In this document: positions 541 through 60,429 of the stretch, in pieces
Position numbering within the stretch: the first letter of the stretch is position 1
Layout: each line of letters begins with the position of its first letter
Assembly: GCA_026874595.1 (NCBI GenBank)
Contig: CM049316.1
Span: 26,643,339 to 26,707,338 of the forward strand
DNA: 64,000 nucleotides
Direction: 5' to 3'
From: Sipunculus nudus
Taxonomy: Eukaryota; Annelida; Sipuncula; Golfingiida; Sipunculidae
Notes under the pieces: generated by a model
What the model was told of the DNA's origin: nothing
The model's database searches: none
What the model saw: the letters and a program-made list of their open reading frames with translations, nothing else
Made by a program: the position numbers and the translations under genes

Positions 541-3061
541 CATAAAAACATTAATAAAAGCTACAATTTTTGGCCAATTTCTTTCAGCTTTCTAAACTAC
601 AAAGCTGAAATCCTCATGTGTCCACGATATGAAAATTATATCAACAGTGCTCTCAGGAAACAAACGTGCTATGGTCAAAGTTGGGCAAAATTTAAGGTAC
701 TAATTTTATATTTATACTAATAACTTATAAAATTTGAAAAATTCAGAACTAATTTTGGGTATTCAATTGAATCTTGATTAAATAATGTTTATATCCCTGA
801 CAAAAAATCTCTAGCTTCAGCAATCCTCTTGTTAAGGGAGTAAATATATTTTCTTGATTTTTTTAAAAGTGCATTATGTTTGGGCCCATAACTTAAAACA
901 ACTAGAATACGGGTAGTCGACAAGCGACTACGTGTATCCGCCATAATCAGAGAAGGACGGGTTAAGTGAGGCATGGATTGAGTGGCAAGGGGAAATAAGA
1001 GTTACACGTGTTACATATTAGAATGGATGTCTGCCACGTAAACATGATTGTAGGTGGCGCCACCTGTTATTTGAATGAGAAACTATCCAAGATGTATACA
1101 CATGCAAAATTTCAGGTTGGAAAGCAAACCCCTGCAGAGATAGGAGTGATTTTAACCCACAGCAGGCAAACAGATGGACGCTGTCCAAAAATGGCTGCAG
1201 GTGGCACCACCATATTTGTGTATGTTATAAAGCATTTATGTCTGCAGCGTGAACGTGAATGAAGCTGGCGCCACCTGTCATAAAATCAAGAAAGCTATCT
1301 AGGACGTATACGCATGCCGAATTACAGGTAATTTGGGTAAACCACTGCAGAAATATGAGTGATTTTAACCCAAGGCAGACAAACAGATGGACGCTGTGCG
1401 AAAATGGCTGCAGGTGGCGCCACCATTTTTGTGTATGTTATAAAGCTATCCTAGGGCTATATTTGTGTAAATTTTTTTTTCAGATTGGTTGAACGAGTCC
1501 GGATATATAAGCAGGGATGTCTACAGCGTGAACGTGAATGTAGGTGGCGCCACCTGTCATAAAATCAAGAAAGCTATCTAGGATGTATACGCATGCCGAA
1601 TTTCAGGTGAATTAGTCAAACCACTGCAGAGATATGAGTGATTTAAACCCGAGGCAGACGAACAGATGGACACTGTGCAAAAAATGGCTGCAGGTGGCGC
1701 CACCATTTTTTGTGTATGTTTTAAAGCTATCCAAGGGCTAAATTTGTACAATTTTTTTTTCCTGATCGGTCAAACGGTTCCCGAGATATGTGGGTTTATT
1801 TGTGGAAACAGACGCACAAATGGACGCTGGGCAGAGAGGAAAGGTCAAAGGTCAAGGCCAATTGGCTAGGCACCAGTTCACATGTGACCCGATAATTGGT
1901 GTAAGTTTCGGAAAAATCCGTCCAGTAGTCTCAGAAGAGTTCTCCGGAAACGAACGCGGCGGCCGCGGCGGCGGCGGCGGCGGCGGAACCCGTTCAAAAA
2001 CATAGTATCCGCAAAACTTCGTTTTTGCGGATACAATTAAGCAATACTGACATCATTTCTGGCATGTGCATAGCGAATGTATAGAAAATTATGTATATTA
2101 TATATGATCAAAGTTAGATCAGTGGTTTTGATATTAGGCAGTCTTAAAGTGTAACAATGGGTTTTTTTATGGAAAAATGAAGTTTTTCATTAATATCTCG
2201 AAGGAATTAAGTCCTAGTGACCAAATTCATGGCATGGTAGGGGATTTTGGAGACATCTATAACTGTATGCCAAATTTAAGCTGAGCTCTAGCAAACTGTA
2301 AAACACTAGCTAGATGTAACCAATATGTAACATGGTGCTTGAAAACTTGAATAAAATCTACAGTTTTTGATCACCTGGTTTCAAATTTTGGGTTTTAACA
2401 GTTGAAATGCTAACAAAAACATGCTTTGAAAATTAAATCCACAGCAGTTATAGGAAAAAAACTTGCCATGGTCAAAGTTGGGCAAAATTTAAGATACCAA
2501 TTTTTTATTTTTGCCAATATTTAAAAAAATTTAAAGATTTTGATCTAATTTTGGGTATACAATTTAATTTTGATTAATAAAAGTTATATTACTGAAATAA
2601 AAGTGCTTAGCTTTAACAAGTTTTGTGTTAAGTGATCAAATTTCTTTTCTGATTATTTTCAAAATGCATATGTTTGGGCCCATAACTTTTTTAAATTATA
2701 TAATACAGACCTAATTTCTGGCATGTGCATAGGAACTATAGAGAGGATTATTTATGGTAAATATGAGGAAAAAAAGATGTGTGGTTTTGAAGTTAGGCAG
2801 TCCTGAAGTGTGAAAATAGGTTTTTAATAAAAAATTGATTTTTTTTTCCTTGATTTCTCAAAGAAACGAAGTCGCAAAGACCCAGGTTTCGGCTTGGTAG
2901 GAGATCTTGGGGACATCTAACATTATTCCAAATTTTGTCCTAGGTCTTACGGTTTCAAAACTTGCCACATCTACGGACAGACGGACGGCTAGACAGACGG
3001 ACGGACGACGGACAATGGACCAAGACTAGCTCAGATGACTTATAGTCAGCTGAGCTAAAAA
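541..3061 (-). mobile_element. Family A-related tandem-repeat element
   Basis: Two diverged monomers are visible, one at about 541-2330 (split by the nested family B copy at 901-2037) and one at about 2340-2950. Both contain the landmark TGTTTGGGCCCATAACTT (near 877 and 2669). The right end has the family A terminus read on the minus strand: purine-rich GGACGG repeats at about 2990-3015, then GACTTATAGTCAGCTGAGC at about 3037-3055. The same terminus is seen at 37.78 kb. No coding capacity is visible. The left boundary is uncertain because no hairpin end was found. Confidence 0.6.
901..2037 (+). mobile_element. Family B tandem-repeat element, copy B1
   Basis: It begins ACTAGAATACGGGTAGTCGA and ends with a hairpin, GTATCCGC ... 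GCGGATAC, at about 2005-2034. Between these lie tandem units of about 285 bp, each with two GGTGGCGCCACC-type palindromes roughly 130-150 bp apart (for example near 1051, 1263, 1414, 1540, 1692). A (GGC)n run lies at about 1955-1986. It interrupts an A-related monomer: the flanks resume the order seen in the uninterrupted copy near 2680. I infer a non-autonomous Helitron/Helentron-like element because there is no target duplication, the end has a hairpin, and there are central tandem repeats; it could be another class. Confidence 0.7.
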
Positions 3062-3753
3062 TGAATTATCCGATAGGCCTATCAAGGCTATATTACGTCG
3101 TATGTGAGGTATACTAAAGCGACTATTTGTGTTGTCCACAAAGTGGGACCCATTGTGTCAAATGAAAGATCGAGATCTAAAGAAATCGCTACTATAATAT
3201 ATATCCTGTATGAGCGCGCACGATACAAATAACGCAATACAAAAACTACAAATAACACCGTTACATATCCTATCGCCCAACCACATCCCCAGTCAAGACT
3301 GTCAAACCGCAATTTAGTTTACCTTTTTTACCTGTTCTCCAGTAGATGTCGAGACATCTTACCACTGTGTCTACGTTGACGTGTCGTCAACCATAAAAAG
3401 TGATTTCTTTGCTGGACACGCATAATGCAAGGTTTTTACTCCTGCGCATGCGCTTGTAATCCTTATGGTTTTGTGCGGCGGAAATAAATGGCAGATGCGA
3501 CCGCAAGTAGAATTCTTTGTCAGCGTCACTTATATCTATATATACACTTGACTCGGCCATGGGTCTTATATTGTCGCGCATATAATTTGTTTGATATTCA
3601 AGTGCATGCCAGTTCTGTATTCATAATTATATTGAACTCATTTGTATGATGCAAATACATGTGTGTATACTTTACGACATAACTGGTCATATTTAAAAAC
3701 CAGCACCAGATGAGGGTTTAATAATTTGCGCGAAGACTTTTTGCTAGATACGT

Positions 3754-3911
3754 CCTACTAACCTCCGATCCCCGGAGTGTATATATCGTCCCCGCGTCAC
3801 CTATAGCTGTAAGACGGCCTGGGTCGCATGCACCTACTAACCTCCGATCCCCGGAGTGTATATATCGTCCCCGCGTCACCTATAGCTGTAAGACGGCCTG
3901 GGTCGCATGCA
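3754..3911 (+). repeat. Perfect 79-bp tandem duplication
   Basis: Two head-to-tail copies of 79 bp (3754-3832 and 3833-3911) are identical by eye. Each starts CCTACTAACCTCCGATCCCC and ends GGTCGCATGCA. The identity suggests a very recent duplication or an assembly duplication. Confidence 0.9.
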
Positions 3912-4637
3912 CCTGTCATGAGCCACACTGGACACGGCGGCGATCAGCAGGATCCGCCCGTGATTTCGTATCAATCAGTACTCCTACATATAACAATTAA
4001 GTTTCAATGTCATCTGATGCCCTATCCGAATGTCCATGAGTTCATTACATGCACTGTTTATATGTACTGAAAGGTGTTAACTCGAAAACCAGCGAAGCGC
4101 CACATTCGCATATACGACATTCAGTGTTGTTATTATCCTTATATTATTATGATAATTAAATGTATGCGTGAGGGCATGCGAGGTGGCTGTTGAGCATGCA
4201 TATATAATTATCAAACCCCTTGGCATGGCTTGTGAGATCGATTTACAATTTGTTATCTCCGGCAGAATTTAGTACATGTAGATTATATGTATTTTGGAAA
4301 ACGCAAGATTTATCATTGTAACAGCCTATACGAGTAAAAAGCCCACTTGAAGTCTCGTATGCAGAAGTTTAAGGGAGAAAACGGGATCGGACGTAATCCG
4401 TTGCTCCTTTTTGATTTTAGATGTATATTATTTATCGCATAGATTTTAATTGTCCCCCTTGTAAATCCACCCCTGGCATATATGGCGATCCGCAGGTGTA
4501 GATATATCGTGGTATATCCTATCAGAAAAAAAAGTGTTGTGGTGTCAATTTATCTTCAAGGGTGTGGGGTGATAGAGTGTGGGAGGGTAATCAAGGGCGA
4601 GGGAGGATAATCAAGGTTGGGACAACTTTGTTTTAAA

Positions 4638-4642
<5 letters not shown>

Positions 4643-4692
<50 letters not shown>
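4643..4692. repeat. (AT)n microsatellite
   Basis: About 50 bp of alternating A and T with one interruption (ACATA). Confidence 0.95.
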
Positions 4693-4694
<2 letters not shown>

Positions 4695-5290: not shown

Positions 5291-5336
5291 GTTTATACAC
5301 TCAGGGGCGGATACATGATTTCAGAAATGAGGGAAA

Positions 5337-6900: not shown

Positions 6901-6906
6901 AATAAA

Positions 6907-6908
6907 TA

Positions 6909-8036: not shown

Positions 8037-8700
8037 TAGATAGATATATATATATATAATATCCTGTTAGTAGGTGGTTTAGTATCATCAATATTCTAAA
8101 ACACTTCACTATAAATGTTAGTCCAACAGATCTAACATTGAAGACGATAGGGTCGAGAGGGACATTAAAGAAAATGTGAACCAGGCAACCCATGGTAAAG
8201 GCACAGGCGCTTAAATTGCAATTACTTATCTGACTTTTCCCAGCATTTTTCACACTATATGAACCATCTTTATTATACCCAAATATAAGTAAATAATAAA
8301 GAGATAAACCATATAGTGTCAAAAACGCTGGTAAAATGTCAGATAAGTAATAGTTATAAGGAATTGACCAAGAAAAGTAACACATTTAACCGAAATCTAC
8401 ACTAATGGCAATATAAGCGCCTGTGGAAAAGGCCATGTCACCTGTCCATGACCACGTATAAGAAGAACTAGAAGGATGTAAAATGAATATATGTTGGTTC
8501 TCATCGTGAGCTTTTATTCCACATTACGTCTAATTAGTCCCTCACTGATTTCAGTGTAAAACTAACATTTATGTTTGTAAGAAAAATTGACCTAGAAGAA
8601 GCTTTGTCGGCGATATCTTGAGCATACTCACTAAGTATAACTTATTGGGTATTTTTGAGCAGTATCTCAACTCCGGATCATTCCCATGTAAACGAGCATG
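7276..8700. other. Non-coding stretch with (AT)n tract
   Basis: No gene recognised. A compound TA/TAGA tract sits at 8005-8058. Confidence 0.5.
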
Positions 8701-21099: not shown

Positions 21100-21396
21100 A
21101 GTTAATGGGTAGTCAACAAGCGACTACATGTATCCGCCGAAATCAGAGCGGTACGGTTGAAGTGATGCATGGATTGAGTGATAATTAAGGAGATATAGAG
21201 TAAGATGTGTTGCATATTAGCATGGATGTCTGCCGCGTAAACATGATTGTAGGTGGCGCTACCTCTCACTTGAACGAGAAAGCTATCCAAGATTAATACA
21301 TATGCCAAATTTCAGGTGGATAAGTCAAACCACTGTTGAGATACGAGTGATTATTACCCTATGCAGATGAACAGATGGACACCATGCCAAAATGTG

Positions 21397-21449
<53 letters not shown>

Positions 21450-21733
21450 ATGATATAAAGCTGTCCAAGAACTACAAAAAATTTAGCCCCATTGGTCGAT
21501 CGAGTCCCAAGATATGTGGGGTTCTGTGTGAAAATTGTCGCACTGATGGACGTTCTGCTGAGAGGATAGGTCAAAGAAAATGACGGCGCAGCAGTTCACA
21601 TGTGACCCGATCATTATTCCAAGTGTCATAAAATTCCGTCCAGTGGTTACAGAGGAGTTCTCTGGAAACCTTTGCAGCGGCGTCCGGCTGAAAACATAGT
21701 ATCCGCAAAACTCTGTTTTGGCGCATACAATAA
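21100..21733 (+). mobile_element. Family B tandem-repeat element, copy B4
   Basis: It starts at GGTAGTCAACAAGCGACTAC and ends at the hairpin GTATCCGC ... GCGCATAC near 21700-21729. Only about one tandem unit remains, with GGTGGCGCTACC near 21252 and an (AT)n tract at 21396-21446 in place of the second palindrome. Confidence 0.65.
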
Positions 21734-21767: not shown

Positions 21768-23430
21768 GTAACAAGGGACCTGTGGGTAATCGAGCTCAGC
21801 TGAAATTGAATATGAGAATATTTTTATAAACAAAGGACCCATGGGTCACGTCACTCAGCTGAATTTTGGAAAATATTAGCAACTGCAAAATATTTTTATT
21901 TCTTTTGGTTTTTCATGTATATTATTAGCATTTGAAAAGCTAAGAGAAAATAGCCCTGTTAAAATGAAACTCTGTAAATTATAGAATAATGGACATGAAG
22001 TCAAGCATTTGCACTGTGTAATAAATGAAACCTGTGGCCTGAAACCATTTAATGATGCTCCATGGGAAAAAATGGTCCTACAGTAAGTGTTAAATAAAAA
22101 TTACATTTCAGAAATAAATACTGTGTGAAGGTAATTAAGCTTTCAAAAATTAAATATATGGCCAAATGATTTAAAATTAATCCAACAAAGTTTGACCAAT
22201 ATTCCTAATTTTAAAACTAAGTTTAACAGTGTTATTTACACTTAGGCGCGGCCAACTTTAAGAGATATGAATGAAATGCTACAAAGTATTTATATCTTCT
22301 TAAATCTTGTCAGTTAGCAATTACATTAGATCATAATATTTTATCACATTTGAGTATTAGGATTAAATTCCTGAACATTTTCTTCTTAAAAAAAATCAAA
22401 ATTGTCCAAGTCTCAACGAAAAGAATTAATTTAACATTAAAATTATAAGAATCGTCTTGCTTATTAGTCCTCGGTATTGAAGGGGCCAATGGGGGGAGGG
22501 GTCTCTGTTGTTATCGCTCGTTGCTGAAAAAAAAGTGAAAAATGAAATTATAATTCATCTTATTTATTGAACAGGTCTGTCAACAGAATAGGGGAAGGGG
22601 GGGGGGGGGGGGGGGGGAGGCTCCCTGTGCAGCTGTGCAGACAGCCGGATCAAGCTCAACAAGAGAGAGGGCTTGCCCCAGTGATGGGATTACATAACAA
22701 CAGCCCGGGGAGCATAGAGAGCTGCACTGAATGACCTACAGTGACCAAGTGGACTGCCCAAGGTAAGGGAGCCTCCAAAAAATTTAATAACTAGCCTAAT
22801 TTTGCAGCTTTTCAAATTTCAGATTTTTACTGATTAGTTCCTTATGTGTACATGCCGTGAAAATTAAATCACAGTACTGACAGGAAAAAAAACGTGCCGT
22901 GGCCAGATTTAGGCAAAATTGAAGGTACTAATTTTATATTTATGCTAATAAGTTAAAGAAATTGCAAAATATAGATCTAATTTTTCGGTGTACAATTGAA
23001 TCTTGATTAAATGAAGTTATATCCCTGAAAAAAGTCTCTAGCATCAGCAATTCTTATTTTAGGTGAGTAAATTTATTTTCTTAATTTTTTACAAGGTGCA
23101 TTATGTTTGGGCCCATAACTTCAACAAATTACGGAATACTGACCTAATTGTTGGTATGTACATAGGAAATGAATGGAGGAATATGGATATTTACTATGAT
23201 CAAATACAAATCAGTGGTTTTGATATTAGGCAGTATTGAACTGTAATAATGGGTTTTAAATGAAAAACGGAGGTTTTTTCCTTAACATCTCGACGGAACG
23301 AAGCCTTAGTGACCCAATTTTCAGTAGGAGATTTTGGGGACATCTTACTGTATGCATAGTTTTGGATTCCTAGCTCCAACGGTTTCAAAACGTGCCCTTT
23401 AACGGATGGACGGACGACAGACAAAAGACC
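21768..23430 (-). mobile_element. Degenerate family A-related element
   Basis: Two family A hairpin ends lie 63 bp apart (ACAAGGGACCTGTGGGTAAT at about 21768, ACAAAGGACCCATGGGTCAC at about 21831). The body at 22800-23430 is a monomer of the 541-3061 type, with TGTTTGGGCCCATAACTT near 23105, and ends in ACGGATGGACGGACGACAGA near 23402. The final GTCAGCTGAGC terminus is missing. A G tract lies at 22598-22618. Confidence 0.5.
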
Positions 23431-23639: not shown

Positions 23640-23701
23640 AAACAACACAAAAATTATTGTAGTTGGCACCACCAGTCTTTTATACAATGAAGCTATCATA
23701 G

Positions 23702-23743
<42 letters not shown>

Positions 23744-24052
23744 CAATTTTAGACTGACATATCAAACCCCTCCTGAGAAATAAGCAGGGACATACACTGT
23801 GCGAAAATTATTGTAGGTGGCGCCACCAGTCTTATATATGACAAGGCTATCCGACATTTATAAATATGCCCGATTTCAGGCTGATATATCAAATTCCTAT
23901 GCAGAAATGCACGTACACTGTGCAAAAGTCACTGTTGGTGGCGACACCTGTCTTGTGAACGTAAAAGCCATCAAAGACGCAAAGAAAGGTCAAATATCAG
24001 GTCAATACATTAAACTTCCCTTGAGTTTGATGCACTGGGCTGACCAGGCTTA
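23640..24052 (+). repeat. Tandem units with GGTGGCGCCACC palindrome, family B-like
   Basis: Three units carry TTGGCACCACC (23664), GGTGGCGCCACC (23817) and GGTGGCGACACC (23938), each followed by CAGTCTT or TGTCTTGT and a GCTATC-like block. An (AT)n tract lies at 23707-23740. No element ends seen. Confidence 0.6.
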
Positions 24053-24055
24053 GGT

Positions 24056-24395
24056 GAGAAAGGCAGTTACCCCGAGTGAACTGTGACAAATTGCTGGCTC
24101 AAGCTATTGCACTGAGTGAACTTTTTACCTGCACCTGACTAGACTGTGTAAATTTTTGACCTATACCTGCCTGCATTGAGTGAATTCTTGACCTGTTGCA
24201 TAATCTGACTCAGTTGGCAATCTGCCAAAGCTATAAGTAGAATGCAGCTACTGCATTTATTGAGCTCTTGACCTGTTGCCTAATCTGATACAGTTGGAAG
24301 TCTGCCAAAGCTATAAATAGATCCCGGCTGACCTTTGGCATGTTGCCAAATCTGAAATAGTTGGCAGTCTGCCAAGCTATCTATAGATACAGAAA
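24056..24395 (+). repeat. Tandem units of ~75-85 bp with TTGGCN5GCCAA dyad
   Basis: Three clearest units share TTGACCTGTTGC, TAATCTGA and then a dyad: TTGGCAATCTGCCAA at 24214-24228, TTGGAAGTCTGCCAA at 24294-24308, TTGGCAGTCTGCCAA at 24361-24375. The first and third are exact TTGGCN5GCCAA, the known NFI-type dyad. Earlier units (24060-24180) are more diverged. Confidence 0.65.
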
Positions 24396-24399
24396 CAAT

Positions 24400-30174: not shown

Positions 30175-30188
30175 TTCCCGCCATTCCT
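30175..30188 (-). other. Polypurine tract
   Basis: AGGAATGGCGGGAA on the minus strand lies immediately before the 3' LTR (TGTAG...), the usual position of the plus-strand primer. Confidence 0.7.
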
Positions 30189-37200: not shown

Positions 37201-37781
37201 TGTCAACAATGAAGATTCTAGGTCCAGTCCTTACGATTTGTACCCTGTTGACAGATAACTACATCCTGAAAGGTCTCGAAAATAGAGAAAAAAAAATGGT
37301 GAAAATTTGAAAAAATACAGGTGGCCCCATAGCTCGAAGGATATGGGTAACAGAGACCTAATTTCTGGTTTCCTAGGAGATTTTTCATGGACCTCTCCGT
37401 GTATCAAGAATTAAGATTCTAGGTCTAGGCTTTACGATTTGTGCCTTGTTAACAGATGTTCACATTTTTAAAGGTCTCAAAAATAGAGAAAAAATCATGA
37501 CCATCAGTCAAGTAGTTAATGAGATATTGAAGTTTTTGTATGAAATTTTTGACTTTTCTGGGGGGTACTTTGGGGCCCCATAGCTCGAAGGATATGGGTA
37601 ACAGAGACCTAATTTCTGGTTTCCAAGGAGATTTTTCATGGACCTCTCAGATTCCCAAGTTACAAGGTTCTAGGTTAAGCGGTTACGATTTGTGCCTGGT
37701 TAACGGACGGACAGACGGACAGACGGACGACGGACAAAGAGTGATCGCTATAGCTCAGATGACTTTCAGTCAGCTGAGCTA
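34229..37781 (-). mobile_element. Family A tandem-repeat element, copy A2 (nested in gag)
   Basis: On the minus strand it starts AGCTCAGCTGACTGAAAGTC at about 37780 and ends TGACCCATGGGTCACTTG at about 34231. Near-terminal inverted repeats (GCTCAGCTGA and TCAGCTGAGC) flank the body. The body at 36291-37690 has degenerate units of about 340 bp with GGTGGC(G/A)CCACC-type palindromes. Gag reading resumes on both sides with only TTA shared between the flanks, so the element was inserted with little or no target duplication. It contains family B copy B2. Confidence 0.85.
34409..36290 (+). mobile_element. Family B tandem-repeat element, copy B2 (nested in A2)
   Basis: It begins ACTAGAATACGGGTAGCCAA and ends with the hairpin arm region GTGTCCACAAAA ... 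GGAGGGTAC. It has the most regular array of the window: palindromes near 34809, 35093, 35244, 35371, 35520, 35648, 35797, 35926 and 36075, alternating about 150 and 128 bp, so the full unit is about 278 bp. Its surroundings are family A sequence. Confidence 0.85.
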
Positions 37782-38421
37782 AAAACTGTTCACGCACCAG
37801 CAGGTCAATCAACTGGTCAAAATCACGTTTTACGCCTGCCAATTCTATCCACCGATCTAACTATCCGCTCAACCGCACCGCAAACTGACCGGGGGTCTCA
37901 CTCCGATCCGGCCTACACGTACGAAATTTGTATCTGTACCCCTCCTCTGTCATCTGGTATCGCCTAAGCAATTCGAGTTTTAATTTGTCGTAATCCATTG
38001 CATCCTCTGTGGATAACTGTGCGTACGCATCAAGCGCTTTACCGCGTAACAACGAACTCAGATGTAGAGCCCAAGTCTTTTTTGGATAACCCTGACATGA
38101 CACAACTCGCTCAAACCTCTCGAGAAACGCATCTAACCGATCGCGTTGCTCATCAAAAGCCGGAAGCTTAAATTTCGGAAGCGATTCAGACGGGTTACTA
38201 TTACTGCGCTCTACTGGCTGTGAAGCCTGAATTTGTAACTTTTTTAACTCGAACTCGCGCTCGCGTTCCCTCTCGGCTACCCTTGCATCCCGTTCAGCAT
38301 CTTCCCGTTGCTTCGCTTCTACTACCGCTTAACGCTTAGAAACGAAATCCTGCAACGCCTCACCTGTATAACCTAACGCCTGTCCGCATCCAATTACGGA
38401 CTTCATCGGATGCATGGCCAT
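37782..38421 (-). pseudogene. Gag N-terminal part of the Gmr1-like element
   Basis: From ATG at 38421 it encodes MAMHPMKSVIG, then an in-frame TAA at about 38329, then a highly charged, probably coiled-coil Arg/Glu stretch (about 38320-38240), and a capsid-like region with LLRGKALDAYAQLS, ELLRRYQMTEEGYRYKFRTC and PGQFAVRLSG. A second in-frame stop (TAG) is at about 37860. The reading then runs into the nested element. This is the usual SCAN-like gag fold region of gypsy elements, by general resemblance. Confidence 0.75.
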
Positions 38422-39025: not shown

Positions 39026-39997
39026 TGTCACACGGTACTTCGTGTGGTTCCAGGTTGTTTAAATATGATAGAGCATTTTGATGTAAATTAAATCTGACTG
39101 CGGAAGGACACCCTGGTGCAAGTACACTCACGCCTAAAAAGTGAAACAACACCTTTTAACAGAAACAATATAATTAAAAGAAAAGATATGGCAAACGTTA
39201 TACTCACACTATCAGAGCAAAGTAAATACCATCACAGCTCTGGAGTAATTCCTATTAACTCACAGGAACAACTCGGGACACATAAAAGAGTCATATGACA
39301 CACGTAAACACAAAGTTCTCCTCTGGGTGACGACACAGACACTGCATTAACAACACAACACACGAACAAGGAAAGTCTTTACGGCGCCCGCGAATCCAGT
39401 ATCGCTCCAGTGAATATATTCAATACGCCGATAGTCCGTTCAATCTGTCCGGCCTATGGCACGTGCACAGGCGTACGGCTCCAATCTGCCAAACGATTAG
39501 CAGTCAGGCTTCCGCCCCGCGTGGTCGATCCCGTAAACCACCCTACCTTCAGGACTCGGAGGTCCTGATACAAACAGTCTTACACAATCCATAGATTTCA
39601 GGTCCTGACAGCATGAGTATTCCCTCATGGAATATCACTGACCTGTTGCCGGCCCGGTACGTAGGATCCGGCCCTCCACTGAGACATCTGAACACGTGGA
39701 AAAAAATCTATTTCCCCGACGACTAAAAGCAGTTAATGGGCAACTTACACCCGCAACGAAGTCTGCATCAAGGTTTCTGTCGGCTAACCCTTGTCGACTG
39801 CCAGTACTTTCCCAGTACGCGACTCTGAGGAGACTTCGTCCCGCTACCTCGTCATGACATGAACAGCACTTGCGTACACACGCAGTTTTTTTTACAGATA
39901 TCCCCCCCGTTCCGCCCCTTTTGGGGTCTTATATAGTGATGCACCCGGTCAACCCCTGGCCTAGCCAATCAGCGCCAAGCTTACCCTCCAAACTACA
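39026..39997 (-). repeat. 5' LTR
   Basis: 972 bp, same ends as the 3' LTR. TATATAA on the minus strand at 39929-39935. It is followed outward by CTCCAAAAAAAGGAG and then the rest of the family B element. Confidence 0.95.
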
Positions 39998-40097
39998 TTC
40001 CCGCTCCAAAAAAAGGAGTTCTCCAAAAAAAGAACGCGGCGGCGGCGGAACCCGGTCAAAAACATATTATCCACAAAACTTTGTTTTGGCGGACACA
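39998..40097 (+). mobile_element. Family B element copy B3, right end
   Basis: It contains GAACGCGGCGGCGGCGGAAC and the terminal hairpin region, as at the end of copy B1. It completes the element that starts at 28108. Confidence 0.8.
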
Positions 40098-41308
40098 AAT
40101 AGGGTGTCCCACAGGGAAGCTGCGCCTGGCCTGAGATATTTTTAAGTTTAGTTCCCTCTATGATATGATGGAGAAATACTCGCCACTTATAGCGGGATAT
40201 GCTGATGATCACCAACTTACTTAGCGTACCAACCAGGATGTAAAAGAACGGAAATGGATGCCATTAGAAACCTTGAGAAATGTATTTCAGATGTCAGAGC
40301 ATGGATGCTGACCCATCGACTAAAAATTAACGACACCAAAACTGAATTTCTGTTCGTTGGAACAAAACAACAACTGGCAAAAGTAAACGTTAGTGAAATA
40401 AAAGTAGGGAATACAGTGATAAGGCCAGTCATAAAATAAGGAAACTGGGCGTAATCTTTGATTTAAACATGTTAATGTTAGATCATGTAAACCATTTGTG
40501 CAAGATAGGTTACCATCAGTTGACTTAAATTAGACAGATAAGGAAGTATCTGGACAAATCAACAGTTGAAGCACTTATTCACTCTTTTGTAAGCTCAAAT
40601 ATGGTCTATTGTAATTCTCTATTGTATGGCTGCTCAAGTATGTGATTAATTAATTGCAAAAGCTACAGAACTGTGCAGCCAGAGTGGTGTGTGGAGCCCA
40701 GAGATTTGACCCTGTAACTCCGCTGATGAAGGATCTTCACTGGCTTCCGGTTTCCTTACGAATTGAATATAAAATAGCTCTTTTGGTATTCAAGTGCCTG
40801 CATGGCCAGGCACCTGAGTATTTGTCTTGTTTAATTGAGAAGCATAATCCCAGCCATGCTCTGAGGTCCGGTCAACGTAATCTGCTTGTGGTTCCCAAGA
40901 CAAGGACAAAAACATTGGGGTCAAGGGCCTTCACAAGTGCTGCACCAGCCGTTTGAAATAAACTTCCGGACGACATCAAATGCTAAGACAGTATTAATAA
41001 CATTTAAAGCCTTTTTTAAAAACACATTTATTCAGAACTGCCTATCATATGTAAAATATACATCGATCACATGAAAGGTTAACACTATCATTTGATTTGC
41101 AATTTAGTTTTAGTCTCTTTAGTCATTCTTTTAATCAGGTCATGATCTTATTATATTCTGTTTTAATTTAATATTTTTTGTTGTAGGATCTTGTAAGTTG
41201 ATCTCCTAGTGAATGTATTTTTTAATTTTAGTCTGTACAGCGCAACTGAGTATTACACATATTGTTCATGTTTTATTGTGGCGCTTTATAAATTTAATAA
41301 ACTGTAGC
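40098..41308 (+). pseudogene. CR1/L2-like LINE, 3' part
   Basis: It resumes the LINE begun at 27250: GVPQGSCAWPEIF (40104) is the RT block after the motif A region, AGYADDHQL (40190-40216) holds the catalytic YADD, then AWMLTHRLKINDTKTEFLFV, LHWLPVSLRIEYKIALLVFK and CLHGQAPEYLSCLI, the C-terminal region typical of CR1/L2 elements. Frameshifts and stops occur near 40162, 40219, 40438 and 40642. The 3' tail ends GGCGCTTTATAAATTTAATA near 41300, a form common in L2-like LINEs. Confidence 0.85.
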
Positions 41309-41339: not shown

Positions 41340-42560
41340 AACTTCCTATGACTCTACAAAAAAAAAACAATGAACCCAATCTATTCTTATACAAGTAAAG
41401 AAATCCTATCCTAGAATATTCTTGTGAAAAATTAAACCATTCAGACTGAGAGTTTCATCATTAAACATTTTTAAGCTGAAAGTGGCTAAAATTACAAAGT
41501 TTCTGACCGTAAAAAACAGGTCGATGAAAGTGGCGCCACAAAAAAACTGCAATTTCAAATACGAGTCAGATTACCAACAATTGCACAAAATTTAGTGATC
41601 CTAGCTCCTATTCTTTCTGAGATTGTTATGTTAGTATGCTTACTTGCCAAACGACTAATTTCTAATTCCTGTCACTCGGCCGAAATTCATCAAACCAAAA
41701 CCATTTGAACAAATTTGATAGTCCTGATTTCTGGAATAATTTCTGTGAAATATTGAACCATTTGGCTGAATGATTTTCGAGAAGAAGATTTTCAAAGGTT
41801 TTTTAGCATTTCCCCAATAAAATGTAAGTTAATGCAGGTGGCACCACAAAAGCTCAATCCCACAACATTTGATATGTGACAGAGTTTTGCATAAAATTTA
41901 GGAATGCTAGCTTCAGCTATTCCTGAGAAATTATGGATTGATGTACTGATGACTGATGGCCCCTGAGCAGAAAAAGGTCGATGCAGGTGGCGCCACCAAT
42001 ACCTTAATTTCAAATATAACTCGTGTGACCAACATTTGATTAAATTTAGTGATGATAGCTAAAGCCGTTTCTCCAAACTTGAGAGAATTGTTTCAACGAT
42101 TATTCCTGTGAAAAATTGAACAATTTGGCTGGACAGATTCAGAGAGAAGATTATTTTTAAAGTTTTTTTTTCAATTTTCCATTTAAAATCTGAGTAAATG
42201 CAGGTAGCAAAAAATGATGCTATCATAGTTTTTAAATGGCTGAATTTTTGCATAAAATTTGGTGATGCATATTATAAAGCTTGTGATGAAAGCATGGGTT
42301 AACGTACGGACGACGGCAGACGGATGACGCTGCGCCATGGCATAAGCTCACAGATTCACTAAATAGAGGGTTTTTCCTAATTTCTCGAAGGAAGGAGGTC
42401 GCAGTGACCTAATTTTAGGTGTGTTAGAACTCAGGGACATCTACCTCCAAATTTTGGATTCGTAGGTCTAATGGTTTCAAAACTTGTCTTTTAACGGAAG
42501 GTCGGCCTGCATGACAGACAAAGGACCATGACTATAGCTCTGATGACTTATAGTACGGAA
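41340..42560 (-). mobile_element. Tandem-repeat element (family C) with A-type end
   Basis: Units carry AGTGGCGCCACAA (41529), GGTGGCACCACAA (41837), GGTGGCGCCACCAA (41986) and a degenerate GGTAGCAAAAAA (42202). Each unit also has a TTGAACCATTTGGCTGA-like block. The right part, 42370-42560, matches family A ends: TCTCGAAGGAAGGAGGTCGC, then ACTATAGCTCTGATGACTTA. The left limit is taken at the LINE tail. Confidence 0.55.
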
Positions 42561-42599
42561 GCGTGTTGCTGCCACCTGGTAAAAAAAATAAATTATTTA

Positions 42600-42767
42600 T
42601 CTCGTACGTACGACATACTGTCTCGTACGTACGACATACTATCTCGTGCGTACGACATACTATCTCGTACGTACGACATACTATCTCGTACGTACGACAT
42701 ATTATCTCGTACGTGCGACATAGTATCTCGTACGTACGACATATTATCTCGTACGTACGACATAATT
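42600..42767. repeat. 21-bp satellite, eight copies, centred on TCGTACGTACGA
   Basis: Eight head-to-tail 21-bp units, each containing CTCGTACGTACGACAT with occasional single changes (GTGCGT at 42647, GTACGTGC at about 42710). The core TCGTACGTACGA is a perfect palindrome. There is no unique spacer between units. Confidence 0.95.
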
Positions 42768-49968: not shown

Positions 49969-50064
49969 TTATTTGAACTTGATAAACCCAGTTCCTCGCC
50001 AACAGACAGAAATCTGTCTGTTAGACAGTTGATAACATGGACCCCTGATTAATATAAATATATA

Positions 50065-50420
50065 TATATCTGGTCAAATTTAAGAATAGGCCAGCCCAAA
50101 TTAAAATTTTGATTAATATATATATATATCAAGGCCCAGATTAGACTCTGATCAAATTTAAGACCAGCCCAAATTAAAATTTTGATTTGGGACCAGCCAA
50201 GATCAAAATTTTAATCTGGGCCAGACCAGTTTTAATCAGGACCAGCCGGCCCAGCCGAGATTAAAATTTTGATCTGGGCCGGTCAAGATGACAATCCTGT
50301 GGTGAAGACTTCAGGAAATGAGATCTGGTCTGGACTGATTTAAAACTGGGCCAGCCCAGATTAGAATTCTGATCTGGGTTGGTCCAGATTACAATCCTGT
50401 GGATTAACCTCAACCAGATG
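50065..50420. repeat. Palindrome array centred on AAAATTTT
   Basis: CCCAAATTAAAATTTTGATT (50095), CAAATTAAAATTTTGATTTG (50169), AAGATCAAAATTTTAATCTG (50199), GAGATTAAAATTTTGATCTG (50259) and CAGATTAGAATTCTGATCTG (50360) are near-perfect palindromes joined by GGGCCAG/CCAGCC linkers. Each could form a hairpin. Confidence 0.8.
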
Positions 50421-52330: not shown

Positions 52331-53019
52331 ACTTCTCTGTCACATAGTCTGTATCCATTTCTGCAGGTGTACATATACTCAAGAGTTATGCTAGCATTAA
52401 AAATTGGAGGAAGTTAACTTAGAAAAAAAGAATTAATAAATATAAGATAATGGTGCTAACAACATTTGCAGGACAGCCTTATTGTCAAGAGGAATAAAAA
52501 CTATGTAGTTATCAATTTTTAAGTATTATTTTACAAAATAATGTGATCTCTTTTCTGCATGCTAGGATAGTTCAAGTAACTTTCACACACAACTTCAGTT
52601 AACTGCCCTAACTTATTGATCCCAAGTTCTGTATAATTGATATTTTAAAACAGCTGTACATCATGTTTGTGTTAAAAGGTTATTCAACACACCTAGGCCA
52701 GAAAGAGGACCAGAGTATTTATATCATTTATCCCTTACTCATCCAGACTGCTAGTTTCGCTACTGACACAGAGATACAATAAACACTTCATTTTATCAAT
52801 TTATCAATAGTTGCTGATACACTGTGTGTGTAGCATGGCTCAGGCAACCTTTACCCATTATAAGATGTACATTATGTGTAACACAGGGACTTGACACATT
52901 TACTGAATACTATCTTCTCCGCTGGGTTTGTCCTCATATCTGACGCAATTTAGCTTGGATGACTCATAGTATTCTGAGCTATAGCAATCACTCTTTGGCC
53001 TTGATAAATGTCCTTGGAA

Positions 53020-54800
53020 ACATAAAATTAGGTCACCATGACCTGTATACTGGGAGCTATAGGAAAAAAACATGAATTGAGCACCCTGAAAGTCAAATGG
53101 GTTCAAATTTTATCCTTTAGACAAAGAATCTTCTAACGCAACATCCAGGGAGTTTCTGGGCAAATTTTCTCAGAAACCTTAAACCAGGTCAAGATGACCT
53201 ATATTCTGCAAGTAACTGGACAGAAACATGACTTTAATGAAATCAGGTCACCATGACCTATATTCTGTGATCTATAGGAAAAAACATGTATTGAGCACCC
53301 TGACAGTTAGATAGGGCAGAAATTGTATGCATTGAACCTAGAAATTTCTAACAGTACATCCTGGGAGTTCCTTGACATATCTCCTCAGAAACCTGAAATA
53401 AGGTCATGATGACCTATATTCTGCGAGCTAATGGCCGTAAAAAACATGATTTAGAGCACCCAGAGGGTCAGCCAGGGCACGACTTGTATCCATTTGGCCT
53501 ATACAATCTTCTGATGTGGGGAGGTCCTGGGTAAATGTCCCTTGAATAATGTAAAAAGGGCACTGGGACCTATATTCTGTGAGCAATTTGCAAAAATTAG
53601 ATTATGGGCACCTAAACAGTCAGGCATGGCACAGAATTATCTGTTGGACCTATAACCTTCTAATATTATATCCAGGGAGTTTATGTACAAATTTTCTCAT
53701 AAATCTTAAATCAGGTCATGATGACATATATTCTGTAACTGGCCAAAAAAACATGGCTTTAATTAAATTAGGTCACTGTGACCTATATTCTGCTAGATAT
53801 TGGAAAAAAACATGAATTGAGCACAATGGTGCACACACTGAATCTGTTAGACCTAGATTCTTCTAATGAAATATCTAGGGAAGTCTTGGGCAAATTTTCT
53901 TGGTAACCAGAAATTAGGTCATGATGACCTATGTCCTGTGAGGGACTGGCCAAACACATAATTTTTAACAACAGACAGTCAGAAAAGACACAAATTGTAA
54001 CTATTAGGCCTAGAATCTTATAACAAAACATCAAAGGAGGTTCTGGGCAAATCTCCTTTAAAACCTGAACAAAGGTCATGGTGACCTATCTTCGACAAGC
54101 ATCTGGCCAAAAATATGAATATGAACATGTAGAGAGTCAGGCATGGCACCAAACTTTACCGTTGGACCTATAACCTTCTAATATTATATCCAGGGAGTTT
54201 ATGTACAAATTTTCTAATAAATCTTAAATCAGGTCATGATGACATATATTCTGTAACTGGCCAAAAAAAACATGGCTTTAATTAAATTAGGTCACTGTGA
54301 CCTTTATTCTTCTAGATATCGGAAAAAAATGAATTGAGCACCTTCGAAGTCCATTGTGCACACACTGAATCTGTTAGACCTTGATTCTTCTAATGAAATA
54401 TCTAGGGAAGTCTTGGGCAAATTTTCTTGGTAACCAGAAATTAGGTCATGATGACCTATGTCCTGTGAGGGACTGGCCAAACACATAATTTTTAACAACA
54501 GACAGTCAGACAAGACACAAATTGTAACTATTAGGCCTAGAATCTTATAACAAAACATCAAAGGAGGCTCTGGGCAAATCTCCTTTAAAACCTGAACAAA
54601 GGTCATGGTGACCTATCTTCGACAAGCATCTGGCCAAAAATATGAATATGAACATGTAGAGAGTCAGGCATGGCACCAAACTTTACCGTTGGGCCTAGAA
54701 CCTTCTAATATGACATCCTTGGGGTCCTTGGCAAGTCATCTTTGGATCCTGAAATTAGGTCACTGTGACCTATTTTCTCTGAGCTATTAGCTGAAACCTA
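53020..54800 (+). repeat. Tandem array (family D) with AGGTCAnnnTGACCT dyads
   Basis: Units of about 157 bp, often with an extra dyad 58-59 bp away. Exact AGGTCAnnnTGACCT starts at 53030, 53186, 53245, 53401, 53770, 53916, 54073, 54289, 54443, 54600 and 54757; one-mismatch versions (TGACAT) start at 53712 and 54231. Other shared blocks are TTCTAA-x-ATATCCAGGGAG and TTGGGCAAATTTTCT. It lies 1.4-3.2 kb upstream of the first SLC16 coding exon. The open frames inside it are repeat by-products. Confidence 0.9.
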
Positions 54801-54845
54801 ATTTTGAGCACCCAGAAAATCAGACAGGTCACAAATTTTAAACTG

Positions 54846-55060
54846 ATGGTGGCTTCTCCACTTGCAACCCTGGGTTCAATTCCCAGTGTGGCTATGAGAG
54901 TGGGTTGTAGTGGCCCGTCCAAGAAGGATGGTTTTCTCCAGGTACTCCAGTTTCCTCCACCTTTACCAACTACAGAGCACTAATATCCGAGCCTTGGAAA
55001 AGGCCTTGTATTAGTTATTATAACTAGTTGTACAATCCATGTAAAATAATAAAGTTGACA
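54846..55060 (+). mobile_element. tRNA-derived SINE-like element, copy 2
   Basis: The B-box-like GGGTTCAATTCCC is at 54872-54884. The body shares TTTCTCCAGGTACTCCAGTT, TTTCCTCCACCTTTA and ATATCCGAGC with copy 1 at 44450. Copy 1 and 2 differ at many positions, so they are old. Confidence 0.55.
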
Positions 55061-56216: not shown

Positions 56217-56225
56217 ATGCTGTGA
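56217..56225 (+). other. Minimal upstream ORF before SLC16 start
   Basis: ATGCTGTGA, a two-codon ORF, lies 13 bases before the main ATG. A possible acceptor (TGGCTTTCAG) ends at 56210, so these bases may be the last part of a 5' UTR exon. Confidence 0.3.
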
Positions 56226-56237
56226 AGTATAGCCACG

Positions 56238-56454
56238 ATGGGTGAAGATCAGGGTAAGATACAAAAGACGGCAGCCCCGGATGGAGGTTACGGCTGGGTG
56301 GTCTTGCTTGCCAGTCTCTTCACGTTCATGTGTTTCTCAGGGACGTTCGCTTCATATGGTATCTTCCTGCCAGAGTTCTTAGAGACATTTCACTGCACAA
56401 AGGCTGAAGTTGCGGTGATCACAGCCCTCTCAGGTGGTGCTAGTGGCGTGTCAG
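56238..56454 (+). CDS. SLC16/monocarboxylate transporter-like, coding exon 1
   Basis: SLC16 proteins are 12-helix plasma-membrane carriers of the major facilitator superfamily. Many move lactate, pyruvate and other monocarboxylates with protons, others move amino acids or thyroid hormone, so the substrate is not fixed here. The exon encodes residues 1-72. The family signature before helix 1 is clear: APDGGYGWVV (residues 13-22). Helix 1 (about 20-42) follows, then SYGIFLPEFLETF, another family hallmark, and the start of helix 2. ATG is in good context (CACGATGG). The exon ends at TCAG|GTGAGA in phase 1 and joins in frame with 60932. Confidence 0.92.
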
Positions 56455-56778
56455 GTGAGATTCCCAGAAGGACTTCCTTGGATAAGATTTACATTGTCTC
56501 AGTTTTAGGTAGACAATATAGGTACACAGACAGTTATAAATGTTTTTTGCCAAATTGTGTTGTCTTTTGTCGCATGTAAATGATAATATAAAATCTTTTT
56601 CATTTACACAACAATCAATATTCTTATATAGGAGCTCAGTTCTGGTTATTAATTTCTTTACAGAATGCAAAACTTTTTCATTTCCCAGCAGTTGCTTGAA
56701 TGGCAAAAAATGTAGCTTAGGTGTTAGCTGTTGCATCTAGAAAATTGGGGCTCATACCCAGACTATATAGACTTTATA

Positions 56779-59700
56779 CACTGTAGTTGGCTTCATATTT
56801 GTGAGCTAAAATGTTTGCGATTTTCACTTCTTCAATTTTTAGCTCAGCTGACTGAAAGTCATCTGAGCTATAGCGATCTCTCTTTGTCTGTCGTCCGTCC
56901 GGCCATCCGGCCTGTGTCCAGTTATCCGTAAACAGGGCACAAATCATAACCGCTGTACCTGGAATCTTCTAACTTGGTATCCTGGGAGGTCCATAACAAA
57001 TCTCCTTGGAAACCTGAATTATGTCTCTGTTACCCATATTCTTCGAGCTATGGGGCTCCAAAGTACCCCCCAGAATAATGGAAAATTTGATACAAAAGCT
57101 CAAGTATCTGAAAAAGTAATGCATTGATCACCATGATTTTTTGCATGGATATTGATCATTGAGTGTTTCATCAGTTTCTGCAGCCTGGTGGCGCACCTTT
57201 ATTTTTTCGATTTTTACCAATTTTTTTCTTCATTTTTGAGACCTCTTAAGATGCAGTCATCTGTTAACAGGGCACAAATCCTAAAGACTGGACCTAGAAT
57301 CTTCTCTCTTGACATACAGGGAGGCCCATAAAAAGTCTCTTTGGAAACCTGAAATTAGGTCTCTGTTACCATATTCTTCGAGCTATGGGGCTCGGAATTA
57401 CCCCCCTACTGCATTGATCACCATGATTCTTTGCATGAATATTGATCATGGGATGTTCCATCACTTCCTGCAGACTGGTGGCGCCACCTGTATTTTTTCC
57501 AATTTTTACGCATTTTTTGTTTTTTTTCAGACCTGCAATGAAACTGTCATCTGTTAACAGATCATAACCACTGGACCTGGAATCATTGAACTTAATATCC
57601 AGGGAGGTCCATGAAAAATACTCTTTGAAACCAGAAATTAGATCTCTGTTACCCATATTCTCCCAGCTATGGGGCTGTGAAATACCCCCCAGAATAATCA
57701 AAATTTTGATACAAAAGCTCAAGTATCTGAATAACTACTGCATTGATCACCATGATTATTTGCATAAATATTGATCATGAAATGTTCCATCACTTCCTGC
57801 AGACTTGTGGCGCCACCTGTATTTTATCCAATTTTCACGAATTGCTTTCTCTTTTTAGCTCAGCTGACTGTAAGTTATCTGAGCTATAGTGATCACTTTT
57901 TGTCCGTCCGGCTGTCCGGCCATTAACAGGGCACAAATCGTAACTGCTGGACCTGGAATCTTCTTACTTTACATCCAAAGAGGTCCATGAAAAATCTCCT
58001 TGGAAACCTGGAATTAGGTCTCTGTTACCCATATCCTTCGAGCTATGGGGCCCCAAAGTACCCCCCAGAATAGTCAAAAATTTCATACAAAAACTTCAAT
58101 ATCTCATTAACTACATCACTAATGGTCATGATTTTTGGCATACGTATTGATCATGAGATGTTCCATCAGTTCCTGCAGACTGGTGGCGCCACCTGTATCT
58201 TTCGATTTTTTACAAATTTTTTTCTCTATTTTTGAGACCTTTAAAAATGTGGACATCTGTTAACAGGGCACAAATCGTAAAGACTGGACCTAGAATCTTC
58301 ATTCTTGATATTCTGAGAGACCTATGAAAAGTCTCCATGGAAACCAGAAATTAGGTCTCTGTTACCCATATCCTTCAAGCTATGGGGCCCAAAATTACCC
58401 CCCCCCCCCAGAATAGTTAAAAAAATTTCATACAAAAACTTCAATATCTCATTAACTACATCACTGATGGTCATGATTTTTGGCATACATATTAATCATG
58501 AGATGTTTCATCAGTTTTTGCAGACTGGTGGCGCCACCTGTATTTTTTCGATTTTTAACGATTTTTTTCTCTATTTTTGAGACCTTAAAAGATGCAGTCA
58601 TCTGTTAACAGGGCACAAATCGTAACAACTGGACCAAGAATCTTCTATCTTGACATGCAGGGAGGCCCATGAAAAGTCTCCTTGGATACCTGGAATTAGG
58701 TCTCTGTTACCCAGATTCTTCAAGCTATGGGGCTCTGAAGTACCCCCCAGAATAATGAAAATTTGATACAAAAGCCCAAGTATCTGAATAACCACTGCAT
58801 TGATCACCATGATTCTTTGCATGAATATTGATCATGAGATGTTCCATCATTTCCTGCAGACTGGTGGTGCCACCTGTATTTTTTCGAATTTTTACAAATT
58901 TTTTTCTCTTTTTTCAGACCTCAATGAAACTGTCATCTGTTAACAGGGCACAAATCGTAACCACTTGACCTGGAATCTTCAAACTTAATATCCAGGGAGA
59001 TCCATGAAAAATCTCCTTGAAAATTTGAAATTAGGTCTCTATTACCCATATCCTTGGAGCTATGGGGCTCCAAAGTACCCCCCAGAATAATGCAAAATTT
59101 GATACAAAAACTCAAGTCTCTGAATAACTACTGCATTGATCACAATGATTCTTTGCATGAATATTGATCATGGGATGTTCCATCAGTTCCTGCAAACTGC
59201 TGGCGCCATCTGTATTTTTTTCAATTTTTACGAAATTTTTTCTTTATTTTTGAGACCTTCAAAGAAGCTGTCATCTGTTAACAGGGCACAAATCGTTACC
59301 ACTGGACCTAGATTCTTCTAACTTGACATCAAGGGAGGTTCATGAAAAGTCTCTGTGAAAACATGAAATTAGGTCTCTGTTACCCATATCCTTCGTAGTA
59401 AGTACCCCTCAGAATAATTAAAAATTTGATACAAAACTCCAGTATCTGAATAACCAATGCATTGATCTCCAAGATTCTTTGCAGGCATATTGATCATGGA
59501 GTGTTCCATCAGGTCCTGCAAACTGGTGGCGCCACCTGTATTTTTTTCAATTTTTTAGGCATTTTTCCTCTATTTATGAGACCTTCAAATGATGTGGTCA
59601 TCTATTAACATGCCACAAACTGTAACTGCTGTACCTAGAATCTTCATACTTGACATCCAGGGAGACTAATGAAAAATCTCCTTGGAAACCTGAAATAAGG

Positions 59701-60429
59701 TTTCTGTTACCCATATTCTCCGAGCTATAGGGCTCATAAATACCCCCAAGAATAATTAAAAATTTGATACAAACAAAAGCTCCAGTATCTGAATAACTAA
59801 TGCCTTGATAGCCATGATTCTTTGGACCTATATTGATCATGGAGTGTTTCATCAGTTCCTGCAGACTGGTGGCACTCCCTGTATTTTTTTTCATATTTTT
59901 ACGCATTTTTTTTCTATTTATGAGACCTTCAAATGAAGTTGTCATCTGTCCAAAAGCCCACTGAAACCCATTTCTAAGGACTTTTCACAAAATTCATGAT
60001 TTGTTTGCACTCTGACAGTCATTTTGCTCATTGTTCAACATTCCTTGATTTCAGCTGAGCGTCATGGCCCATGGGCCACTTGTTCCTGGAGGGTTTCATT
60101 TTCCATGCAGTAATTTGCATAGTGCATATAACAATTATCATATCAGTTACCTAATCGAGTCAGAACTCTTCGTGCAATAGAGGCAGATGTAAAAAAGTAT
60201 TGGTATAATTTATAAGGTATTATCAATCTTTGAATTATGGGTAACATATATGTATGCTTATATTGATGCCACTAGCATAAAATATATAGGAGAAGCCATT
60301 GAAGCTGTAGAATCAATTACTGTTAAACTGTGAAGATAGGGCACCTTTTTCACAATGGGTTTTATTTTCCTGATAATTTCCCCTTGGCAAATATTGGGAA
60401 TTTGAAACCCTCACAAACAAAAAGGCAAC
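56779..60429 (+). mobile_element. MITE-like family G copy G2, split by A1
   Basis: The left part, CACTGTAGTTGGCTTCATAT to TTCAATTTTT (56779-56840), and the right part, GGAGGGTTTCATTTTCC to AACAAAAAGGCAACC (60087-60429), match the two halves of G1 at 48764-49192. The inserted family A copy occupies the middle. Confidence 0.6.
56841..60084 (+). mobile_element. Family A tandem-repeat element, copy A1
   Basis: It starts AGCTCAGCTGACTGAAAGTC and ends TCAGCTGAGCGTCATGGCCC, then CATGGGCCACTTGTT. It contains nine units of about 340 bp, with GGTGGCGCCACC-type palindromes near 57187, 57477, 57806, 58182, 58527, 58863, 59201, 59525 and 59868. Other unit landmarks are TCTGTTAACAGGGCACAAAT and CGAGCTATGGGGC. 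A second 5' end (AGCTCAGCTGACTGTAAG) occurs internally at about 57857, so this is a head-to-tail composite. No coding capacity. Confidence 0.9.

Follow-up and report, generated by a model that had tools for sequence, protein, structure and literature searches.

Tandem arrays built on perfect dyads recur through a 64,000-base stretch of the Sipunculus nudus genome (the window; position C11:26643339-26707338 in an assembly of 1,426,538,692 bases and 153 contigs). We consider it probable, at about 0.62, that most of these arrays represent core repeats of HINEs (non-autonomous Helentrons), in which the dyads are boxes that were amplified and have since been decaying. The 278-bp and 345-bp repeats of the window lie in HINE-like elements, these elements nest within one another, and one of them is present as a head-to-tail copy. 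The evidence consists of the ends and insertion-free sites of three elements with 278-bp repeats (A, B and C), the ends of the 345-bp elements, and the tandem copy. According to this scheme, the dyads would be parts of a few conserved boxes in the HINE core units, two of which are, or contain, perfect dyads in some subfamilies. Rolling-circle transposition together with local array expansion, a mechanism that we infer from knowledge of the family, would have raised them to tens of thousands of copies. After insertion, the dyads would accumulate mutations at about the rate of the unit around them, GGTGGCGCCACC most often at its central CpG, and any constraint would be weak and would act on the transposing lineages, where several otherwise diverged families have GGTGGCGCCACC.

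HINE-like elements that hold the 278-bp and 345-bp repeats

Elements A, B and C are named here for their places at 0.9-2.0, 28.1-29.2 and 34.4-36.3 kb; the letters used in the original prediction, an earlier reading of this DNA, came without coordinates. Element A (902-2034, minus strand) contains a 278-bp core array at 1015-1790 with GGTGGCGCCACC boxes, and its ends are uncertain by a few A/T bases. It sits in a dispersed repeat of which an insertion-free copy is found at 22839-23355. Along the minus strand, TGTATCCGC with an inverted copy is succeeded by a GCG microsatellite, then by the core array, and finally by GCGGATACA with a stem-loop. The left end (2005-2034, minus strand), made of the subterminal repeat TGTATCCGC and its inverted copy, forms a hairpin with a z score of -7.2 that none of 200 shuffles equaled, and the GCG microsatellite at 1956-1986 adjoins it. 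The right end (902-942, minus strand) carries the subterminal repeat GCGGATACA followed by the 3′ stem-loop GTAGTCG..CGACTAC (z = -2.06, 6 of 200 shuffles as good). Ends resembling those of A occur in three genome stretches, L020, L023 and L025, those in L020 and L025 being similar to its stem-loop end.

Element B (28109-29203, minus strand; core array 28221-28995) belongs to the family of A and lies inside a LINE-like (long interspersed nuclear element) reverse transcriptase frame, with its tail at about 40005-40098 separated from it by a Gypsy-type retrotransposon. Element C (34410-36290, minus strand; core array 34513-36182), of the same family, is nested in the 345-bp array of another HINE. 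When the flanks of A and C are joined, they match uninterrupted copies, and those of B continue into the sequence of one frame. No target duplication was seen for A, B or C beyond the ambiguous A/T bases, and insertion took place at AA/TT. An old single-unit copy of the A/B/C type is present at 21107-21733 (minus strand), where by eye an AT microsatellite stands in place of the second dyad. The HINE-in-HINE junction of 34410-36290 recurs in L009 (~8200-8640); because the same nested junction is present at two places, the nested composite was probably copied as a unit. No open reading frame of at least 150 amino acids lies within element A or within the 345-bp element at 56.8-60.1 kb, and exact unit or end motifs were absent from the viral contigs scanned. 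The sequences that surround B can also be described. The Gypsy-type element has long terminal repeats at 29204-30181 and 39026-40004 that are 98.6% identical, and its interior encodes integrase, RNase H and zinc-knuckle domains (Pfam). The LINE-like reverse transcriptase sequence, recognized by eye, spans 27600-28108 and 40099-41300 and is broken by element B and the Gypsy element.

The 345-bp repeats form the cores of two further elements whose outer limits are approximate. One (34222-37790, minus strand) has core units at 36291-37707, is interrupted by C and bears the palindrome TGACCCATGGGTCA at 34234-34247. The other (56841-60090, plus strand) has core units at 56919-59949 and the right-end palindrome TGGCCCATGGGCCA at 60065-60078. 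In the latter, a second left end at 57857 precedes any right end, which makes it a head-to-tail copy whose first member is without a right end; such copies have been described for Helitrons (PMC7492417). The subterminal repeats of the 345-bp elements are CTCAGCTGA and TCAGCTGAG, and GTCC-like microsatellites follow their left ends. Palindromes centered on CCCATGGG were found at four right-end-like places, one of them imperfect, with a fifth that is degenerate. The arms of these five copies read TGGCCC..GGGCCA once and (T)GACCC..GGGTC(A) twice, a paired change, and are imperfect in the other two. Taken whole, the right-end segment at 60 kb shows no folding beyond that of its shuffles (171 of 200 as good).

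This architecture resembles that of the Cg_HINE elements of Crassostrea gigas, which also have satellite-like core repeats (PMC7492417). The likeness extends to a left module with a subterminal inverted repeat (subTIR), an inverted copy and a microsatellite (of the GTCC type in our 345-bp elements), to a satellite-like tandem core, to a right module with a subTIR and a palindrome, to T-rich insertion without target duplication, and to conserved segments common to otherwise different monomers. The two systems are likened by description, not sequence, and they differ in the GCG microsatellite of the A/B/C elements and in the nesting of one HINE within another seen here; in addition, the GGTGGCGCCACC and AGGTCAnnnTGACCT boxes were not met in the portions of the Cg_HINE description that were accessible (PMC7492417). 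The HINE/DINE-1 group shares subTIRs, a 3′ palindrome, central repeats, a TT target and an unmodified target site (PMC4067079). The Pearl family, DTC84 and the BIV160/Cg170 bivalve satellites likewise have core repeats with conserved boxes, DTC84 with a conserved palindrome near the repeat junction, again by description only (PMC5139131).

Family relations and abundance of the dyads

A tandem-repeat search of the window returned 34 rows, including arrays of about 278, 345, 215, 80/67, 29 and 21 bp, as well as a 79-bp unit at 3754-3914 in two copies of 100% identity. The families had been called unrelated, a claim that does not hold. Self-comparison places the arrays at 1.0-1.8, 28.2-29.0 and 34.5-36.2 kb in one 278-bp family, and those at 36.3-37.7 kb (minus strand) and 56.9-59.9 kb in a second, of 345 bp. 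The 345-bp repeat is in turn homologous to family D (53000-54850, plus strand), an array of 14 units of about 157 bp; three units are shortened, and all contain AGGTCAnnnTGACCT or a close variant of it. D and 345-bp units align over about 115-120 bp around a shared box (70% in one pair). The consensus of D has this box as AGGTCATGATGACCT, that of the window's 345-bp units as AGGTCTCTGTTACC. Mixed arrays of the 345-bp type, found in L033, L044, L049 and L051, contain both non-dyad units (AGGTCTCTGTTACCC, AGGTCCCTGTTACCC) and dyad units (AGGTCACTGTGACCT). The 278-bp unit typically has two GGTGGCGCCACC boxes about 129-149 bp apart, and GGTGGCGCCACC is common to both halves of this unit, to the 345-bp unit and to diverged repeats at 23.6-24.0 and 41.5-42.3 kb. 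It is also present in L016, within a 326-bp repeat, where it extends to AACAGGTGGCGCCACCTGTT. In family comparisons, which took L016 in both orientations, flanks reached z ≥ 2 to the right of the GGTGGCGCCACC box in 7 of 20 cases and to the left in 2 of 20.

By eye, family D has a HINE-like left end at ~52955-53010, and no right end was seen. Downstream of it is a plus-strand transporter gene (56229-56455 and 62049-62714), about 1.4 kb separating the end of the family from the exon with the ATG. The first exon of this gene looks monocarboxylate-transporter-like by eye, and its second stretch has an MFS_1 domain (Pfam). The 24.2-kb array (23640-24505, plus strand) begins with diverged GGTGGCGCCACC repeats and continues with cassettes of TTGGCnnnnnGCCAA and AGCTATAAATAG, and the 41.5-kb repeats (41505-42555, plus strand) bear GGTGGCGCCACC and show a HINE left end by eye. 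Repeats like those at 41.5-42.3 kb lie less than ~1 kb from TTGGC cassettes in four of six genome stretches (L036, L038, L039 and L040); since the two kinds adjoin in these, the 24-kb cassettes and the 41.5-42.3-kb repeats of the window are probably parts of one interrupted element. The cassettes themselves, in which TTGGCnnnnnGCCAA is followed some two bases later by CTATAAATAG and the pair is repeated (window 24110-24400; L035-L040), resemble a promoter module that has been multiplied within a mobile element. A 21-bp satellite at 42598-42764 comprises eight copies with TCGTACGTACGA; other 21-bp arrays with long TCTAGA-containing palindromes occur at L011:8004-8065 and L026:6487-6559 (1 and 2 of 200 shuffles as good). 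Finally, the AT-rich region at 50041-50420 has AAAATTTT centers and inverted repeats of 25 nt (88%) and 31 nt (90%). The palindrome reported there is thus present as inverted repeats, but its AAAATTTT center is ordinary for its unit, 300 of 400 shuffles being as good.

Match counts bear out the arrays and dyads at the places where they had been reported. With up to two mismatches, the window holds 40 matches to GGTGGCGCCACC (0.56 expected), 16 to AGGTCAnnnTGACCT (2.19 expected), of which 14 fall within the 53-kb array, and 10 to TCGTACGTACGA (0.67 expected), of which 8 fall within the 42.6-kb array. TTGGCnnnnnGCCAA, at up to one mismatch, is weak in the window, with four matches against 1.91 expected and 18 of 100 shuffles equal, and strong genome-wide, with 12,589 exact places against 279 for the reversed-pattern control. 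The corresponding whole-genome figures are 111,729 against 14 for GGTGGCGCCACC and 13,608 against 93 for AGGTCAnnnTGACCT. A sample of the genome chosen by position (20 stretches of 10 kb, 200 kb in all) contained 35, 0 and 1 instances of GGTGGCGCCACC, AGGTCAnnnTGACCT and TTGGCnnnnnGCCAA, respectively. Among the matches listed, 74 of the first 100 GGTGGCGCCACC sites have a neighbor within 700 bp, and the commonest spacings are 149, 131, 129 and 336. This genome-wide over-representation mostly reflects copy number.

Whether the units hold better dyads than chance would provide is a separate matter, and here the predicted excess over shuffled units is borderline. Out of 400 dinucleotide shuffles, the best dyad of the consensus was equaled in 12 for D, 15 for the 24-kb unit, 36 for the 278-bp unit, 65 for the 21-bp unit, 199 for the 345-bp unit and 300 for the 29-bp unit. 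When 52 arrays from the window and the sample were collapsed into 34 families, by our own grouping, Fisher's combination gave p = 0.049, with 4 of the 34 below 0.05. The excess computed over the 52 uncollapsed arrays (Kolmogorov-Smirnov p = 1.6e-7) was set aside as pseudo-replication.

Divergence of the dyads and rival explanations

Changes were counted by parsimony on FastTree trees, which softens, and does not abolish, the effect of kinship among units within one array. For the wider divergence tests, the dyad was masked during unit finding, as the window had drawn notice by its dyads. The GGTGGCGCCACC sets combined the window with the 200-kb sample, and the second 278-bp box was taken with one adjoining base. 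Beyond the window, 18 genome stretches were inspected for AGGTCAnnnTGACCT and six for TTGGCnnnnnGCCAA; these stretches all lie on a single chromosome contig, and the sampled part of the genome is small. In the D unit, the flanks CTGAAATT-N15-ATATTCTG enclose the dyad, with arms AGGTCA on the left and TGACCT on the right. A first D set joined the window to six arrays chosen for at least two exact dyads each (57 of 60 units aligned), and a second added twelve stretches, each picked on a single exact dyad, to give 85 usable units out of 90. Proband removal, the omission of the one or two units that had led to each D stretch, leaves 63 units.

Outside the window, the dyad is not consistently slower to change. 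In the wider GGTGGCGCCACC sets, the first 278-bp box had 25 changes against 34.5 expected (a count as low in 1,028 of 10,000 matched sets; 22 of 40 units with the box intact) and the second 41 against 33.9 (8,734 of 10,000; intact in 12 of 38), and changes shared between units were not fewer in the second box (8,918 of 10,000). Private changes per site, dyad versus rest, were 0.75 versus 0.57, 0.46 versus 0.50 and 0.58 versus 0.49 in the three GGTGGCGCCACC sets, and 0.92 for the arms versus 0.47 for the rest in D (85 units). The central CpG of GGTGGCGCCACC has decayed to TG or CA in 22 of 92 units. For D, the first set gave 3.67 changes per site in the arms, 5.92 in the rest and 8.67 in the spacer, and in the second set the ratio of arms to base-matched sites was 0.60. 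Once both probands and window are left out (49 units), this ratio is 0.86, with 2,024 of 20,000 matched sets as low. Slowing was absent from the TTGGC arms (2,104 of 20,000), for which 11 of 23 hits were usable and only four units remain after proband removal. Across the 52 arrays, the rate of mismatch to the consensus was 4.5% within best dyads, compared with 5.8% outside them; among the 32 with at least 10 mismatches, the dyad was slower in 19 and faster in 13. As a general rule, slower divergence of dyads was thus rejected on the GGTGGCGCCACC wider sets, the D genome loci and the 52 arrays. In the HINE reading, the dyads of inserted copies would decay at roughly the rate of their surroundings, with no sign of functional upkeep at each locus.

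A number of observations weigh against the HINE reading. The claim that the dyad stays intact as its surroundings diverge does describe the window, for D and the 278-bp boxes and more weakly for the 345-bp box, and it is in the wider sample that it becomes uneven. In the window, the 12 sites of the D arms show 3 changes where 20.6 were expected (0 of 20,000 base-matched sets as low), next to 11 in the three spacer sites; the first and second 278-bp boxes show 8 against 17.1 (185 of 20,000) and 5 against 15.5 (26 of 20,000), and the 345-bp GGTGGCGCCACC box shows 11 against 20.4 (654 of 20,000). Some of the signal extends to the wider sets, where the 345-bp dyad had 15 changes against 24.9 (94 of 10,000; intact in 6 of 18 units), shared changes were fewer in the first 278-bp box (403 of 10,000) and the 345-bp box (297 of 10,000), and, with window units kept and probands removed (63 units), the D arms gave ratios of 0.73-0.74 in three random draws (50-113 of 20,000). 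Both D halves are intact together in 40 of 85 units, against 29.9 under independence, and in 18 of 63 against 12.7 without probands. Furthermore, for the 24-kb cassettes, the 21-bp satellite and family D, a place within complete HINEs is putative, and, in a difference from HINE/DINE-1 (PMC4067079), no autonomous partner was identified here, although none was sought.

Some of these signals can be traced further. The box of the 345-bp unit homologous to the D dyad (AGGTCTCTGTTACC), which is not a dyad, changed 3 times at its 10 outer sites in the window, where 15.1 changes were expected, and once at its 5 middle sites; since a non-dyad box is also strongly conserved there, conservation does not simply track palindromy. 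The half-site excess would come from the AGGTCTCTGTTACC subfamily, because it vanishes once these 21 units are omitted: both halves are then intact in 40 of 64 units against 39.7 expected, in 18 of 42 against 19.0 without probands as well, and in 7 of 28 against 9.5 outside the window. The AGGTCTCTGTTACC-type units were recognized partly by right-half letters, and 2 of the 21 are perhaps decayed D units. Conservation of a hairpin by compensation was rejected. Among 117 altered pairs in D, 115 were one-sided, 2 both-sided and 0 still paired, and among 76 in GGTGGCGCCACC (92 units), 73 were one-sided and 3 double (~2.4 expected), with 2 compensated. Folded as single strands, three of five core segments did no better than shuffles (first 278-bp box, 165 of 200 as good; D, 51; 345-bp box, 79), and two did better (second 278-bp box, 6 of 200; 21-bp satellite, 0 of 200).

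The original prediction offered binding by a dimeric protein, or array expansion promoted by palindromes, as the reason for the dyads; the dyads do recur, and GGTGGCGCCACC is common to diverged families, but most of the specific predictions of these ideas were not clearly borne out. AGGTCAnnnTGACCT is, letter for letter, the consensus form of the estrogen-response element (ERE), and TTGGCnnnnnGCCAA the NFI consensus. Unlike those sites, the dyads here stand in repeated, transposon-like sequence, and their binding is putative. If a nuclear receptor bound AGGTCAnnnTGACCT, an NFI-like protein TTGGCnnnnnGCCAA and the element's own protein GGTGGCGCCACC, lineages that keep the sites could spread better. 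The binding of a vertebrate ERE by a gastropod estrogen receptor (PMC3778743) would fit this proposal, as would the slow arms and fast spacer of the window D array, the lower number of shared changes in two of three GGTGGCGCCACC sets, the dyad common to several diverged families (including the 326-bp repeat with AACAGGTGGCGCCACCTGTT), and the intact pairs above independence when the non-dyad subfamily is counted. We nevertheless judge it unlikely, given the D ratio in the genome loci after proband removal, intact pairs that match independence without AGGTCTCTGTTACC-type units (with the reservation on their recognition given above), a second 278-bp box and TTGGC arms that are not slow, and the strong conservation of the homologous non-dyad 345-bp box in the window. 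Improbable, too, is the wider proposal that HINE lineages keep protein-recognized dyads (nuclear-receptor inverted repeats of the IR3 type, NFI and GGTGGCGCCACC) since binding would aid replication or germ-line expression, and that they have thereby seeded more than 10,000 hormone-receptor-type and more than 10,000 NFI-type sites, one array of which lies ~1.4 kb upstream of the ATG-bearing exon of the transporter.

That palindromes mark junctions or promote rearrangement, the dyad being the point at which arrays grow, break or exchange modules, seems rather improbable. There is precedent in bivalves, where 13 of 16 breakpoints of the satellite phBglII400 are associated with a 12-bp palindrome and a conserved palindrome lies near the repeat junction of DTC84, although the junctions of other satellites show no link to palindromes (PMC5139131). 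In the window, by eye, the segment lost from one 278-bp unit (C1) coincides almost exactly with the dyad, a junction falls within the dyad of one 345-bp unit, and the dyad region is lost from another 345-bp unit and from the old copy at 21.2-21.7 kb. These events are few and may be fortuitous, and the same arrays have rearrangements elsewhere too. The uneven flanks of the GGTGGCGCCACC box and the two core segments that fold better than shuffles would agree with such a role, and the three that do not speak against it. Chance is the poorest candidate in our view: any unit of 150-350 bp would hold some dyad with arms of 5-7 bp, which amplification would then multiply. The shuffles lend this some weight, the consensus dyad being unremarkable in the 345-bp and 29-bp units and marginal in the 278-bp unit and D, as does the p value of the 34 collapsed families; the same GGTGGCGCCACC in several diverged families seems unlike chance. 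Carrier transposons of the HINE type explain most of what is seen, and the modest deficit of shared changes in some sets, together with the sharing of GGTGGCGCCACC, may leave room for function in the propagating lineages.

Significance for dyad-rich genomes

Satellite monomers often hold conserved motifs and palindromes that perhaps promote their propagation, which is an established view (PMC5139131), and for this reason the idea behind the original prediction is not new in kind. Within the open-licence literature, nothing was found on estrogen-response elements together with transposable elements in oyster, and the search on GGTGGCGCCACC gave a bacterial enzyme paper only. The numbers worked through here illustrate that a conservation signal from one window can fade once the units that drew attention to it are removed. 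They also advise caution in scanning such genomes for ERE or NFI sites, as perfect matches to these consensus sites, in their thousands, probably belong to transposons. For Sipunculus nudus, several arrays with perfect dyads would come down largely to one cause, namely transposons whose core repeats hold conserved boxes.

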